A stretch of DNA of 64,000 nucleotides from Solirubrobacterales bacterium (GTDB lineage: Bacteria; Actinomycetota; Thermoleophilia; Solirubrobacterales; Solirubrobacteraceae). Below the pieces are notes generated by a model. That model was not told the origin of the DNA, ran no database searches, and worked only from the letters and a program-made list of their open reading frames with translations. Within the stretch, counting starts at the first letter, position 1, and each line of letters opens with the position of its first letter. Shown here piece after piece: positions 58,697-61,522 of this stretch. The stretch covers positions 62,001 to 126,000 of the forward strand of contig DAIDME010000099.1 of assembly GCA_027449125.1 (NCBI GenBank), in the 5' to 3' direction. The position numbers and the translations under genes were made by a program.

Positions 58697-59065
58697 ATGC
58701 AACGACTGTTCGCGCTACGCGGGGCAAACAGCGTGGCCTCTAACGACGCCACCGCGATCCTCGGGGCCACCGACGAGCTGATCCGCGAGATGATCGCCCG
58801 CAACGGCCTGCAGCCGGAAGCGATGGTCAGCTGCATCTTCACGCTGACCGCGGATCTGGACGCGGAGTTCCCGGCCGTTGCCGCCCGCCAGCTCGGCCTG
58901 AGCCGGGTGCCGCTGCTGTGCACGCGCGAGGTGCCGGTGCCCGGCTCGCTGCCGCGCGTGGTGCGCACGCTGCTGCACTACTACGCGGACGAGGGTCACA
59001 CGCCGCAGCACGTCTACCTGAACGCGGCGCGGGTCCTGCGCTCGGATCTGGACGCGGCGCAGTAG
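58697..59065 (+). CDS. aroH: Chorismate mutase, AroH class
   Basis: Monofunctional trimeric chorismate mutase (chorismate to prephenate), 122 residues, the normal AroH length. Family blocks: LRGANSVASNDATAILGAT with the N-terminal Arg, SCIFTLTADLDAEFPA, LGLSRVPLLCTREVPVPGSL and the C-terminal VYLNAARVLRSDL. It heads the aromatic cluster, and its TAG stop is part of the -10 hexamer of the next gene. Possible -10 CACAAT at 58682-58687, 9 nt before ATG. Confidence 0.93.
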   Translation: MQRLFALRGANSVASNDATAILGATDELIREMIARNGLQPEAMVSCIFTLTADLDAEFPAVAARQLGLSRVPLLCTREVPVPGSLPRVVRTLLHYYADEGHTPQHVYLNAARVLRSDLDAAQ

Positions 59066-59075: not shown

Positions 59076-60158
59076 ATGGCGATCGAGTTCGCGGAGAAAA
59101 CCCGCAGGATCCCGGTCTACCCGGCGGCCGCCGGTTACAGCCTCGGCACTGGGGTCGCGATGCTCGCCTCCAACGAGGCGACGTTCGGGCCGCTCGAGCC
59201 GGTCGTCGAAGCGGCGCGCCGCGCGGTGATCGGCGCGAACCGCTACCCCGACCCGAGCTACGCCGAGCTGCGTGAGGCGCTCGCGCAGCGCCACGGGCTC
59301 TCAGCGGCGCGTGTCGCGCTCGGCGCGGGCTCCTGCGACCTGCTGCTGGCGGCCGGCGAGGCGCTGCTCGAGCCCGGCGCCGAGCTGGTCTACGCCTGGC
59401 CGTCGTTCAGCATGTACCCGCACCTGGCGGCGGCCTCGGGTGCGCGTGCGATCGCGGTGCCGCTGAGCGCCGACGGCGTCCACGACCTGGAGGCGATGGC
59501 ATCCGAGATCACCGTCGCCACCCGCCTGGTGCTGGTCTGCAACCCCAACAACCCGACCGGCACGGCGCTGCCGCTGGGTGAGATAGAGGCCTTCCTGAAG
59601 GCCGTGCCCGACCACGTCTGCGTGATCCTCGACGAGGCCTACGTGGAGTTCTCGCTCACCGTCGGCGACCCGCTGGCCTCGCTCGAGCTGCTCGAAGCCA
59701 ACCCCAACCTGGTGCTGCTGCGCACGTTCTCGAAGGTCTACGGCCTGGCCGGACTGCGGGTCGGCTACGCGCTCTGCGGAAGCGACTCATTCCGCGTAGC
59801 CGTCGACCAGGTGCGCCAGCCGTTCTACCTGACCGCCGCGGCACAGGCGGCGGCGGCCGAGGCCCTGCGCCACCAGGATGCCGTCGAGCAGCGCGTGGCC
59901 GCAACCGTCGCCGCCCGCGAAGAGCTCGCCGCGGCGCTGCGCGAGCGCGGGCACTGGGTCGCCGCGAGCGATGCGAACTTCCTCTGGGTACGCGTCTCGG
60001 ACAGCGGTGAGGACGGGCCCGTGGTGGCGGCGCTGCAGGAGCACGGGGTGCTCGTCCGCGGTGGCAGCGCACTCGGCGGGCCGGGATTCCTGCGCATCAC
60101 CGTCGGCACCGCGGATGAGAGCGCGCGTCTGCTCGCCGCGCTCGCGGCGCTCGCGTGA
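59076..60158 (+). CDS. Histidinol-phosphate/aromatic aminotransferase (HisC family)
   Basis: PLP class II fold, 360 residues. Blocks: MLASNEATFGP, NRYPDPSYAELREAL, GAGSCDLLLAAGEAL, VCNPNNPTGTALP, LDEAYVEF, and the Schiff-base Lys in RTFSKVYGLAGLRVGYAL. The fold cannot separate histidinol-phosphate from aromatic substrates. The location between chorismate mutase and DAHP synthase/prephenate dehydrogenase argues for phenylalanine/tyrosine transamination, while no his genes are nearby. A dual role is possible. Confidence 0.88.
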   Translation: MAIEFAEKTRRIPVYPAAAGYSLGTGVAMLASNEATFGPLEPVVEAARRAVIGANRYPDPSYAELREALAQRHGLSAARVALGAGSCDLLLAAGEALLEPGAELVYAWPSFSMYPHLAAASGARAIAVPLSADGVHDLEAMASEITVATRLVLVCNPNNPTGTALPLGEIEAFLKAVPDHVCVILDEAYVEFSLTVGDPLASLELLEANPNLVLLRTFSKVYGLAGLRVGYALCGSDSFRVAVDQVRQPFYLTAAAQAAAAEALRHQDAVEQRVAATVAAREELAAALRERGHWVAASDANFLWVRVSDSGEDGPVVAALQEHGVLVRGGSALGGPGFLRITVGTADESARLLAALAALA

Positions 60159-60162
60159 GTGG

Positions 60163-60168
60163 TACGCT
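60163..60168 (+). promoter_or_regulatory. -10 element for the aroG leader transcript
   Basis: TACGCT ends 13 nt before the leader-peptide ATG (60182). Predicted transcription start near 60175, giving a leader RNA of about 260 nt before aroG. Confidence 0.45.
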
Positions 60169-60181
60169 GCGCTGCAAGCGT

Positions 60182-60253
60182 ATGAGCGACTCAGTCAGCA
60201 ACACCACCGGCTGGTCCTGGTACGCGGTCTATTACGCCTGGCGATTTAGCTAG
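60182..60253 (+). CDS. Aromatic amino-acid leader peptide (23 residues)
   Basis: A 23-codon ORF, ATG to TAG, in the 278-nt gap before aroG. Its second half reads GWSWYAVYYAWRFS: three Trp, three Tyr and one Phe in 14 residues, in a genome where such codons are scarce. It lies just after a -10 hexamer and is followed at once by a long inverted repeat whose left arm begins at the leader stop codon. This is the layout of a ribosome-mediated attenuator sensing charged aromatic tRNAs. Too short for ordinary gene finding. Confidence 0.8.
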   Translation: MSDSVSNTTGWSWYAVYYAWRFS

Positions 60254-60322
60254 GCGCTCGGCTGGCAGAGCCCAGGGTCGTCCGTCACAGGCGCGCGGCG
60301 ACCCACAAGGGAGCCGAGCGCC
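60253..60322 (+). promoter_or_regulatory. Attenuator-type nested hairpin between leader peptide and aroG
   Basis: GGCGCTCGGCT (60253-60263) is exactly complementary to AGCCGAGCGCC (60312-60322). Inside it GGGTCG (60275-60280) pairs with CGACCC (60299-60304). The left outer arm starts at the last base of the leader stop codon, so a ribosome stalled at the Trp/Tyr codons or parked at the stop would mask it differently. No T-run follows the right arm, so control may be by factor-dependent termination or by access to the downstream ribosome-binding site. Confidence 0.6.
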
Positions 60323-60407
60323 GCAGATCATCCGCGCCACCGCGCGGCGTAACCCGCGCGCGCCGCTTTGCGTACATTCAGTCAAGTAGCCCGAGAGGAA
60401 ACAGACG

Positions 60408-60437
60408 ATGAACCGCCACCGCATGAGGCAGCCGTGA
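60408..60437 (+). CDS. Mini-cistron coupled to aroG
   Basis: Nine-codon ORF (MNRHRMRQP) with a strong ribosome-binding sequence GAGAGGAA at 60393-60400, 7 nt before its ATG. Its TGA overlaps the aroG ATG as TGATG. The best ribosome-binding site in the region thus serves this mini-ORF, and aroG would be translated by termination-reinitiation. It could also simply be spacing around the aroG start. Confidence 0.45.
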   Translation: MNRHRMRQP

Positions 60438-61522
60438 TGACTGTGATCCGTGCCACCCAGGCCGACGCGGTCCGCGATCAGCGGATCGAGCGCCTCGTTC
60501 CCCTGATCACGCCCCAGGAGCTCTTCGACGAGCTGCCGCTGGACGGCGAGCCACTGGACGTGCTGCTGCGCGGCCGCGCGGCCGCCCACGCGGTGCTCGA
60601 CGGTGTGGACGACCGCCTGCTGGTGATCGTCGGCCCGTGCAGCGTCCACGACGTGGACGCCGCGCGCGAGTACGCGGAGCGCCTGAGCGCCGAGGCTCAT
60701 CGGCTGCGCGACGATCTGCTGGTCGTGATGCGCGTGTACTTCGAGAAGCCCCGCACCACGATCGGCTGGAAGGGCCTCATAAACGACCCCCACCTGGACG
60801 GCTCTGGCGACGTCAACGCCGGCCTGCGCATAGCCCGCCGGCTGCTGCTCGAGGTGCTCGCGCTCGGGGTGCCGGTCGGCTGCGAGTTCCTCGACCCGAT
60901 CACGCCGCAGTACATCTCAGACCTCGTCTCCTGGGGGGCGATCGGCGCGCGCACCACGGAGAGCCAGATCCACCGCCAGCTCGGCTCGGGCCTGTCGATG
61001 CCGGTCGGCTTCAAGAACGGGACCGACGGCAACGCTCAGGTGGCGGTCGACGCGGTGCGCGCCGCGGCGGCGCGGCACGCGTTTCCCGGGATCGACGCCG
61101 ACGGCCGCTCGGCGATCCTGCACACGCGCGGCAACACCGACTGCCACATCATCCTGCGCGGCGGCAAGACGGGGCCCAACTACGACGCCGAGTCGGTGGC
61201 GGCCGCCGCGGAGCTGCTCGCGCGGGCGCACCTGCCCCAGCGCCTGGTCATCGACCTCTCCCACGACAACAGCGGCAAGCGTGCCGAGCGCCAGCCGGAG
61301 GTCGCCGCGGCGGTGGCCGGCCAGGTGGCGGCCGGCAGCCGCACGATGATCGGCGTTATGGTCGAGTCGTTCCTGGTCGCCGGCAAGCAGCCGGCCGGGC
61401 CGCTCGGTGGCCTCACCTACGGGCAGTCGATCACCGACAGCTGCATCGGCTGGGAGACGACCGTCGGGCTGCTCGAGACGCTCGCCGAGGCCGCGCGCGC
61501 GCGTCGGGCGCAGAGCCGCTGA
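60437..61522 (+). CDS. aroG: 3-deoxy-7-phosphoheptulonate synthase (class I)
   Basis: Condenses PEP and erythrose-4-phosphate, first step of the shikimate pathway. 361 residues of the AroF/G/H type: LVIVGPCSVHDVDAAREYAE, VVMRVYFEKPRTTIGWKGL, GCEFLDPITPQYISDLVSWG, IGARTTESQIHRQL, MPVGFKNGTDGN, RGGKTGPNYDAESV, DLSHDNSGK and the C-terminal YGQSITDSCIGWE. ATG 60437 gives the standard N-terminus and overlaps the mini-ORF stop; TTG 60368 in frame is a less likely start. Feedback isozyme specificity is not assigned. Confidence 0.95.
   Translation: MTVIRATQADAVRDQRIERLVPLITPQELFDELPLDGEPLDVLLRGRAAAHAVLDGVDDRLLVIVGPCSVHDVDAAREYAERLSAEAHRLRDDLLVVMRVYFEKPRTTIGWKGLINDPHLDGSGDVNAGLRIARRLLLEVLALGVPVGCEFLDPITPQYISDLVSWGAIGARTTESQIHRQLGSGLSMPVGFKNGTDGNAQVAVDAVRAAAARHAFPGIDADGRSAILHTRGNTDCHIILRGGKTGPNYDAESVAAAAELLARAHLPQRLVIDLSHDNSGKRAERQPEVAAAVAGQVAAGSRTMIGVMVESFLVAGKQPAGPLGGLTYGQSITDSCIGWETTVGLLETLAEAARARRAQSR

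Follow-up and report, generated by a model that had tools for sequence, protein, structure and literature searches.

In the trpL leader of E. coli, the ribosome covers or frees one arm of an RNA helix, and the stop codon of the leader adjoins that arm. Among actinobacteria, the aroR leader of Corynebacterium glutamicum aroF was reportedly described by Neshat et al. in 2014. The available excerpts of three papers report aroR, which lies in front of aroF, as an attenuator (PMC4046766, PMC7356990, PMC11802643), and in one of them aroR–aroF is reported to work via ribosome stalling (PMC11802643). The LEU element of leuA in Actinobacteria combines leader codons with a conserved RNA; in the excerpted part of the survey that describes it, other attenuator elements are missing and the mode of action is given as unknown (PMC1262725). 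The same part of this survey (Seliverstov 2005) describes leucine and cysteine leaders with other attenuator elements missing, and no conserved RNA structure at the phenylalanine/tyrosine operons of Actinobacteria (PMC1262725). As far as the available portions of the following sources go, a re-annotation of Streptomyces lividans gives eight leaders, none of them before a DAHP synthase gene (PMC8079986), and no DAHP synthase leader appears in PMC2965389, PMC9413887 or PMC10272879. Our literature search, which took in few subscription journals, returned no account of the element described below, or of DAHP synthase leaders in Thermoleophilia, among the matches listed.

The element lies in a stretch of 64,000 nucleotides from a Solirubrobacterales genome (the window), upstream of a DAHP synthase gene, and it is real and conserved, and very probably an aromatic attenuator of some sort. 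With E. coli trpL it shares the logic of a ribosome-gated arm and a stop codon next to that arm; it differs in that a competing terminator hairpin was not found as a general feature. Like aroR–aroF, for which the available excerpts report ribosome-mediated attenuation, it places a short ORF containing aromatic codons immediately upstream of an actinobacterial DAHP synthase gene. Unlike it, aroR carries Phe-Tyr-Phe and is reported in the excerpt to respond to Phe but not to Tyr (PMC11802643), and the excerpted descriptions of aroR, with which rather than with its sequence the comparison was made, mention neither an invariant core nor a helix anchored at the stop, nor any association with type I-beta enzymes. 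The likeness to the LEU element, as excerpted, is in having leader codons and conserved RNA without other attenuator elements; the difference is that the codon run of LEU pairs with the Shine-Dalgarno sequence, which here is limited to some lineages. Thus, of the features of a trpL/aroR-type attenuator, we find a leader ORF enriched in end-product codons (54 loci), placement before a gene of the same pathway (96 of 96 loci) and a conserved helix, which a ribosome would presumably block, but no competing intrinsic terminator beyond a weak candidate in the window; the codon:Shine-Dalgarno pairing of a LEU-type translational element gives no general signal and is present in some lineages.

The genes around the leader run in the order chorismate mutase, aminotransferase, leader, DAHP synthase, a prephenate dehydrogenase-like frame, EPSP synthase and a cytidylate kinase-like frame (Table 1). 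The DAHP synthase is clearly of type I-alpha, scoring 486 bits with TIGR00034 (cut-off 173.2) and 499.4 bits with NF009395 (cut-off 343), and the EPSP synthase gene 3′ of the DAHP synthase region is above the cut-off of TIGR01356. The best NCBIfam matches of the prephenate dehydrogenase-like frame lie under their cut-offs, as does the profile score of the cytidylate kinase-like frame, which is truncated by the end of the window. TIGR01361, the profile for type I-beta DAHP synthase, has no match in the genome to which the window belongs (92% complete).

Table 1. Coordinates of the leader, its predicted RNA and promoter elements and the neighbouring genes in the window.
Feature	Position	Strand	Basis or remark
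Chorismate mutase gene	58697-59065		TIGR01796, above cut-off
HisC-family aminotransferase gene	59076-60158		TIGR01141, above cut-off
Extended -10 element TGG-TACGCT, probable leader promoter	60160..60168	+	Directly 3′ of aminotransferase stop codon
Leader ORF, 23 codons, MSDSVSNTTGWSWYAVYYAWRFS, stop TAG	60182..60253	+	Read in sequence; aromatic enrichment restricted to its frame
Conserved core TGGCGATTTAGCTAGGCG, comprising codons W-R-F-S-stop and the initial helix bases	60239..60256	+	Motif search of the order
Helix P1, 5′ arm (A), GGCGCTCGGCT	60253..60263	+	Covariation and pairing scores
Nested hairpin P2, GGGTCG 60275-60280 / CGACCC 60299-60304	60275..60304	+	Read in sequence
Helix P1, 3′ arm (C), AGCCGAGCGCC	60312..60322	+	Covariation
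Weak terminator-like hairpin GCGGCGT/GCGCCGC, then TTTGCG	about 60346..60368	+	Hairpin plus T-run scan (L001)
TACATT, resembling a -10 element; probable internal promoter for DAHP synthase	60373..60378	+	TANNNT over-represented
Second mini-ORF MNRHRMRQP, 9 codons, 3′ of AGAGGA	60408..60437	+	Read in sequence
Type I-alpha DAHP synthase (aroFGH family)	60437..61522	+	TIGR00034, NF009395

The earlier note on this DNA had described a 23-codon ORF between a -10 hexamer and an 11-bp perfect inverted repeat that begins at the leader stop, with a hairpin nested within the repeat. Reading the sequence bears this out: the ORF runs from an ATG at 60182-60184 to a TAG at 60251-60253, the perfect repeat (P1) opens with the final G of the stop codon, and the nested hairpin (P2) has 6 bp. 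Also correct is the count of seven aromatic residues among the last 14 (three Trp, three Tyr and one Phe). The claim that all three aromatic amino acids are covered holds across relatives (54 loci), where the 12 codons preceding the last TGG include 101 Tyr, 44 Phe and 31 Trp codons, but it is weaker for the window's own leader, because Phe is specified there solely by the invariant TTT two codons 5′ of the stop. The suggestion that such a leader would suit control of the common first enzyme agrees both with this span of codons and with the position of all 96 copies before a DAHP synthase gene. Finally, the leader codons and the pairing, whose conservation in homologues had been proposed as a check, are both conserved, and P1 covaries.

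Within the 12-codon stretch preceding the last TGG, 176 of 648 codons (27%) in the leader frame of the 54 non-redundant loci are aromatic, versus 27 of 648 (4%) and 10 of 648 (1.5%) in the other two frames; the aromatic share of codons in the 38 presumed genes of the window is 6.3%. This concentration in one frame implies that the leader frame is translated, or at least under selection as a frame, and rules out a chance ORF. Coding overlap with the aminotransferase is ruled out as well, since the leader starts 3′ of the aminotransferase stop.

These comparisons draw on two samples. Type I-alpha DAHP synthase was searched for in 61 genomes near the window and found in 31, from which 30 loci were taken; in 26 of these 30, found through the protein and not the motif, there is an upstream aromatic frame that ends in TGGCGATTTAGCTAGGCG or a near variant. 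The other four (L021, L028, L029 and L030) appear leaderless, the call for L021 being based on reading by eye and that for L029 uncertain because merely 216 nt precede the gene at the contig end. Together with 70 loci found through the motif (L111–L180) this made 100 loci, with the core present in 96 (95 distinct ones, as L025 and L131 are the same place); 82 lay within our limits on spacing and pairing, and 54 with less than 75% likeness were retained as the non-redundant set.

The core itself, TGGCGATTTA-NC-TAGGCG, was found by pattern search with up to three mismatches in 171 of the 232 genomes of the order, once per genome among the matches listed; the same pattern read backwards, as a control, matched 8 of 232. 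The codons after TGG are CGA TTT in all 96 core loci, a kind of count that is inflated because L111–L180 were chosen via the motif, but with which the 26 protein-found loci agree. Both codons are rare in the presumed genes of the window, where CGA makes up 52 of 1275 Arg codons (4.1%) and TTT 42 of 430 Phe codons (9.8%). The codon 5′ of the core stop varies (Ser, Thr, Ile, Arg or Leu), always with C or T as its third base, and the stop is TAG in 94 loci and CAG in two, its AG being invariant. Relative to the stop, W-R-F is fixed (W in 52, R in 54 and F in 54 of the 54 loci). In L024, CCG replaces the core TGG and the remainder is retained. The core is conserved as bases, most simply through selection either on codon speed or on the RNA, and its invariant rare codons offer a test case for whether the speed of a leader's final codons is itself selected. 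In the two loci with CAG in place of TAG (L006 and L172), the leader evidently extends into the helix, like the leaders of other Actinomycetes.

Several known kinds of element were considered for this region. No Rfam family, T-box included, matched at the gathering threshold in the window, L001, L112, L150 or L166, and a T-box was rejected on this ground; between 60100 and 60500 there are just two snoRNA-type matches, both sub-threshold and outside the leader. A tRNA D-arm-like string at 60256-60271, noticed by eye, is not conserved among relatives. A TrpR-like operator was rejected, its near-palindrome TAGCTA being disrupted by common variants.

All 96 core loci precede a DAHP synthase gene as judged by tblastn, 36 of type I-alpha and 60 of type I-beta, with the match to the enzyme beginning 121–453 nt 3′ of the TGG. 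For the I-beta group, the query from L012 exceeds the cut-offs of TIGR01361 and NF006421, and the remaining 59 were classed as I-beta from their similarity to that query. The leader therefore tracks the reaction rather than the gene family, and its occurrence in front of both of these distant enzyme types points to a regulation that has outlived its enzyme. An I-alpha copy follows the I-beta copy in L012, L014, L015, L016, L019, L168, L170 and L171. Genome G041 has two DAHP synthases: the I-beta copy (L127) has the core, and no core was found in the 216 nt preceding the I-alpha copy (L029).

The stem that begins at the leader stop has been maintained as a helix. In the alignment of 54 loci, 91.9% of P1 cells pair, both sides have changed in 39 cells against 16.3 ± 4.8 for shuffled sequence, and covariation scores 0.237, compared with 0.164 ± 0.010 in shuffles and at most 0.102 with a slid partner; none of 500 shuffles reached any of these three values. 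Two further measures are weaker: 5 of the 11 pairs show changes on both sides (18 of 500 shuffles were as high), and there are 14 further pair types (204 of 500). The outer nine pairs are the best kept, and the eleventh pairs in 28 of the 54 loci. As the 3′ arm was placed by complementarity, we repeated the search on shuffled downstream DNA and with swaps between loci. The pairing score was 9.01 for native arms (96 loci) versus 5.10 for shuffles (1080) and 7.55 for different-arm swaps (644), of which 41.6% still reach 8.4 because outer arm bases are common to the loci; the fixed spacing from TGG to arm is likewise partly a matter of construction, since the motif search was made without insertions. 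The 3′ arm is good in 72 of the 96 loci, weaker in 19, and missing from the usual place in five (L127, L128, L129, L168 and L169). From arm to arm, the P1 domain has a mean z of -2.98 against dinucleotide shuffles, with 52 of 54 loci below -1. The sequence of the nested hairpin P2 is not conserved, and the inner regions have a mean z of -1.13 (53 loci).

The spacing of these parts suggests how they might work together. The last TGG begins 14 nt 5′ of the 5′ arm of P1, and the footprint of a ribosome reaches about 12–13 nt past the first base of its A-site codon. A ribosome waiting at UAG would then cover the 11-nt 5′ arm and block P1 while the RNA downstream is being made; one starved at the last Trp codon, with TGG in the A site, would halt 1–2 nt short of the arm, and starvation at an earlier Tyr, Trp or Phe codon would likewise free it, in each case allowing P1 to form. 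Because P1 occupies the place of the classical antiterminator, it should be the ON state. The remaining steps, promoter activity included, are our inference: CGA, TTT and UAG would hold a well-fed ribosome over the 5′ arm, the gene would probably be switched off by early termination independent of any conserved hairpin, with Rho loading onto C-rich RNA that is otherwise folded up in P1 as the likeliest route, and an internal promoter just 5′ of the gene would give basal, unattenuated transcription alongside the leader promoter. A strong internal promoter would leave attenuation of the upstream transcript with little effect. A ribosome stalled on the invariant TTT would hide roughly five bases of the arm, and for this reason Phe is probably sensed for the most part via earlier Phe codons; the window's leader has none, and the copy in the window should therefore answer mostly to Trp and Tyr. 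Judged from the sequences, we would give about even chances to a ribosome-sensing attenuator of DAHP synthase with P1 as the ON state and a Rho-type OFF step. More tentatively, somewhat short of even, the element may represent an order-wide, terminator-free class of attenuator. Here one ribosome-gated helix, its rare-codon core (TGG CGA TTT nnY TAG) invariant, would sense the charging of Tyr, Trp and Phe and act on DAHP synthase via Rho or another output that needs no hairpin, and the class would have persisted across two distant enzyme families as one downstream gene was swapped for another.

The output step is where the alternatives diverge. It is possible, though unlikely, that this is a classical transcription attenuator, with P1 as antiterminator, the weak terminator at 60346-60368 as the OFF structure, and terminators that in this order lack long U-runs. 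L001 does carry a hairpin with a T-run, and L002–L006 have, by eye, GC hairpins preceding TTTGCG, TTTCCG or TTTTCG at the place of the window's hairpin. Among 20 Actinomycete loci, the same terminator scan (260 nt preceding the DAHP synthase match, leader included) gave matches in 11, of which those in Kribbella, Paractinoplanes, three Micromonospora and Mycobacterium (6) are convincing hairpins with a clear T-run after a similar leader, and the remaining five overlap the leader or look accidental; with such clear terminators in more distant relatives that have a similar leader, the ancestral system may have been of the standard terminator type. Against this, any hairpin with a T-run between arm and gene occurs in just 4 of the 54 loci (L001, L111, L126 and L161, the one in L111 falling inside P1) and TTTT at all in 6 of 54, folding between the 3′ arm and the gene is no stronger than in shuffled DNA (mean z +0.18, with 6 of 54 loci below -1), and in some loci only 40–50 nt separate P1 from the gene start (L145, 40; L025, 43; L018, 50 nt). 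A competing terminator 3′ of P1 is thus unsupported as a general feature. The earlier note, seeing no T-run, had proposed a mechanism other than a standard intrinsic terminator: there is indeed no T-run directly 3′ of 60322 and the rarity of hairpins with T-runs among relatives agrees with the proposal, which is a reasonable one, tempered by the weak hairpin with TTT in the window and the terminators of more distant relatives. By elimination, and by the logic of the arrangement, Rho-dependent or other U-less termination would be favoured. C exceeds G in the inner region of P1 in 45 of 54 loci (mean +0.11), compared with 13 of 54 in coding sequence (-0.03), and it does so likewise in the leader itself (52 of 54) and less in the spacer (35 of 54); the C richness of the inner region would be weakly compatible with Rho.

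A translational attenuator like LEU, in which the aromatic codons (for example TAC GCC TGG) pair with a CCAGGC block before the ribosome-binding site and a starved ribosome frees that site, appears quite improbable as the general mechanism. Pairing of this sort is strong in some lineages (12 bp in L148, 9 bp in L150, and in L171 and L169 extending across the Shine-Dalgarno sequence), 25 of 88 loci have at least six anchored pairs, clade-wise RNAalifold places GCCTGG:CCAGGC at the base of the structure in three clades among the output listed, and the available part of the leucine survey describes a comparable base stem for the LEU element of leuA (PMC1262725). Three tests of pairing or accessibility, however, gave no general signal: the duplexes had a median rank of 0.53 and a mean z of -0.12 against swaps (88 loci), the anchored helix measured 4.85 versus 4.74 ± 0.11 in swaps, and the change in Shine-Dalgarno accessibility between starved and fed states was 0.032 ± 0.018 versus 0.027 in shuffled controls (54 loci). 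Nor is the pairing seen at the window locus (rank 0.73), and codon:Shine-Dalgarno pairing as a general feature is therefore unsupported. The last two alternatives place the activity in the leader product. The leader RNA rnTrpL of Sinorhizobium acts in trans, and TnaC arrests the ribosome in response to tryptophan. That the leader RNA or peptide here acts in trans, with DAHP synthase made mainly from the internal promoter, seems very unlikely to us: the core is conserved beyond the apparent need of cis pairing, there is an internal -10-like element, and a trans function of an attenuator leader peptide is known (peTrpL of Sinorhizobium, in the available part of PMC7298713), but in all 96 loci the leader lies next to a DAHP synthase gene, which suggests a role in cis, and 50 of 54 loci have no hairpin with T-run to end a separate RNA. 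We would put hardly any weight on an arrest driven by the peptide, with the nascent ...W-R-F stalling the ribosome on a free aromatic amino acid; W-R-F does keep a constant distance from the stop, but conservation at the base level exceeds that at the residue level (CGA only and TTT only), the last residue varies, and L024 has no W with the rest of its core retained. The preferred reading thus remains the ribosome-gated P1 with a Rho-type OFF step.

Two promoters would fit this arrangement. Because TGG precedes it, TACGCT at 60163-60168, slightly 5′ of the coordinates in the earlier note, fits an extended -10 element. A -10-like element ending 7–15 nt 5′ of the leader start is found in 38 of 54 loci versus 8.9 expected from shuffles, using a pattern that was widened after sites had been inspected (TANNNT alone gives 15 versus 7.7 expected), and TGN precedes the element in 29 of the 38. 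The leader mRNA is accordingly expected to be nearly leaderless, starting on the start codon or no more than a few bases from it. Between the helix and the DAHP synthase gene, TANNNT occurs in the region 18–60 nt 5′ of the gene start, lying at 24–60 nt, in 34 of 54 loci versus 10.2 expected from mononucleotide shuffles, and 29 of 35 matches begin 28–40 nt 5′ of the start. This element is probably an internal promoter, and in one clade (L111–L120) it may belong to RNA pairing. L021 (genome G003), from the same genus as the window and without the leader, keeps a hairpin and the TANNNT element (TACAGT) before the gene, and is perhaps a natural loss of the attenuator.

Within the order, the core is missing from some genera (g13, 0 of 5; g42, 0 of 4; g34, 0 of 4, with genomes of 3.9–5.1 Mb), and in g33 it has a match in 4 of 17 genomes. 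Among 223 genomes from other orders of the class, the exact core is present in one (G447, locus L184), which has an aromatic leader and, by eye, the helix too; 18 further genomes of these orders have two-mismatch matches alone, a number below the roughly 40 that the backward pattern yields there by an eye count. A short ORF with at least four aromatics in 10 codons was found at 1 of 17 I-beta loci of a neighbouring order (700 nt scanned) and, by the same score, at 81 of 88 loci in the window's order (320 nt scanned). A stricter scan of 21 neighbouring-order loci gave no leaders at a threshold that would miss true leaders too.

Farther afield, aromatic leaders themselves are common. They precede 18 of 20 Actinomycete DAHP synthase loci by eye and 11 of 20 by an automatic criterion, and resemble ours in having a Tyr/Trp/Phe cluster (Streptomyces NRWYWRYEPAPGG, Mycobacterium RAYWRFIVAPGG, Kribbella SYWRFFEW) followed by a GC-rich arm; they differ in that the ORF continues through the arm, with no stop there, and in the convincing hairpin and T-run of 6 of the 20. 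In other phyla, 34 of 55 DAHP synthase loci have at least four aromatics in 10 codons of a short ORF, a count from which five loci with shifted matches were excluded and for which the 1 of 17 in the neighbouring order is the sole chance comparison. Strong examples are L052, L061, L070, L100, L102, L107 and others, among the sequences being MSAKFYFYFFWYLRPLADREGC from Paraburkholderia and, from an Anaerolineae MAG, MSRYFSFFSWYGYFAAGQVERAVV... With this kind of leader so widespread, what sets the present element apart is its core, the anchoring of the helix at the stop and the lack of a terminator. Leaders without visible terminators, namely those of leuA and the cys genes in the available part of the 2005 survey and now of DAHP synthase, form a recurring puzzle in Actinobacteria, in which the sensor is plain and the output is not. 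The present element is favourable for solving it, since sensor, helix and spacing are nearly fixed over the order and the rest varies, and since the set includes lineages with and without secondary features such as codon:Shine-Dalgarno pairing.

Two smaller features of the window's own genome may bear on its aromatic regulation. Its trpE (L240, C78:49987-51312) lies closely 3′ of another reading frame, a HisE-type protein by eye, and no aromatic cluster was found between the two, which may leave the DAHP synthase leader as this genome's principal aromatic attenuator. The stop codon of the mini-ORF MNRHRMRQP overlaps the DAHP synthase start (TGATG), and counterparts were seen by eye at the same position in the near relatives L002–L008; from this arrangement, it looks like a translation-coupling device.
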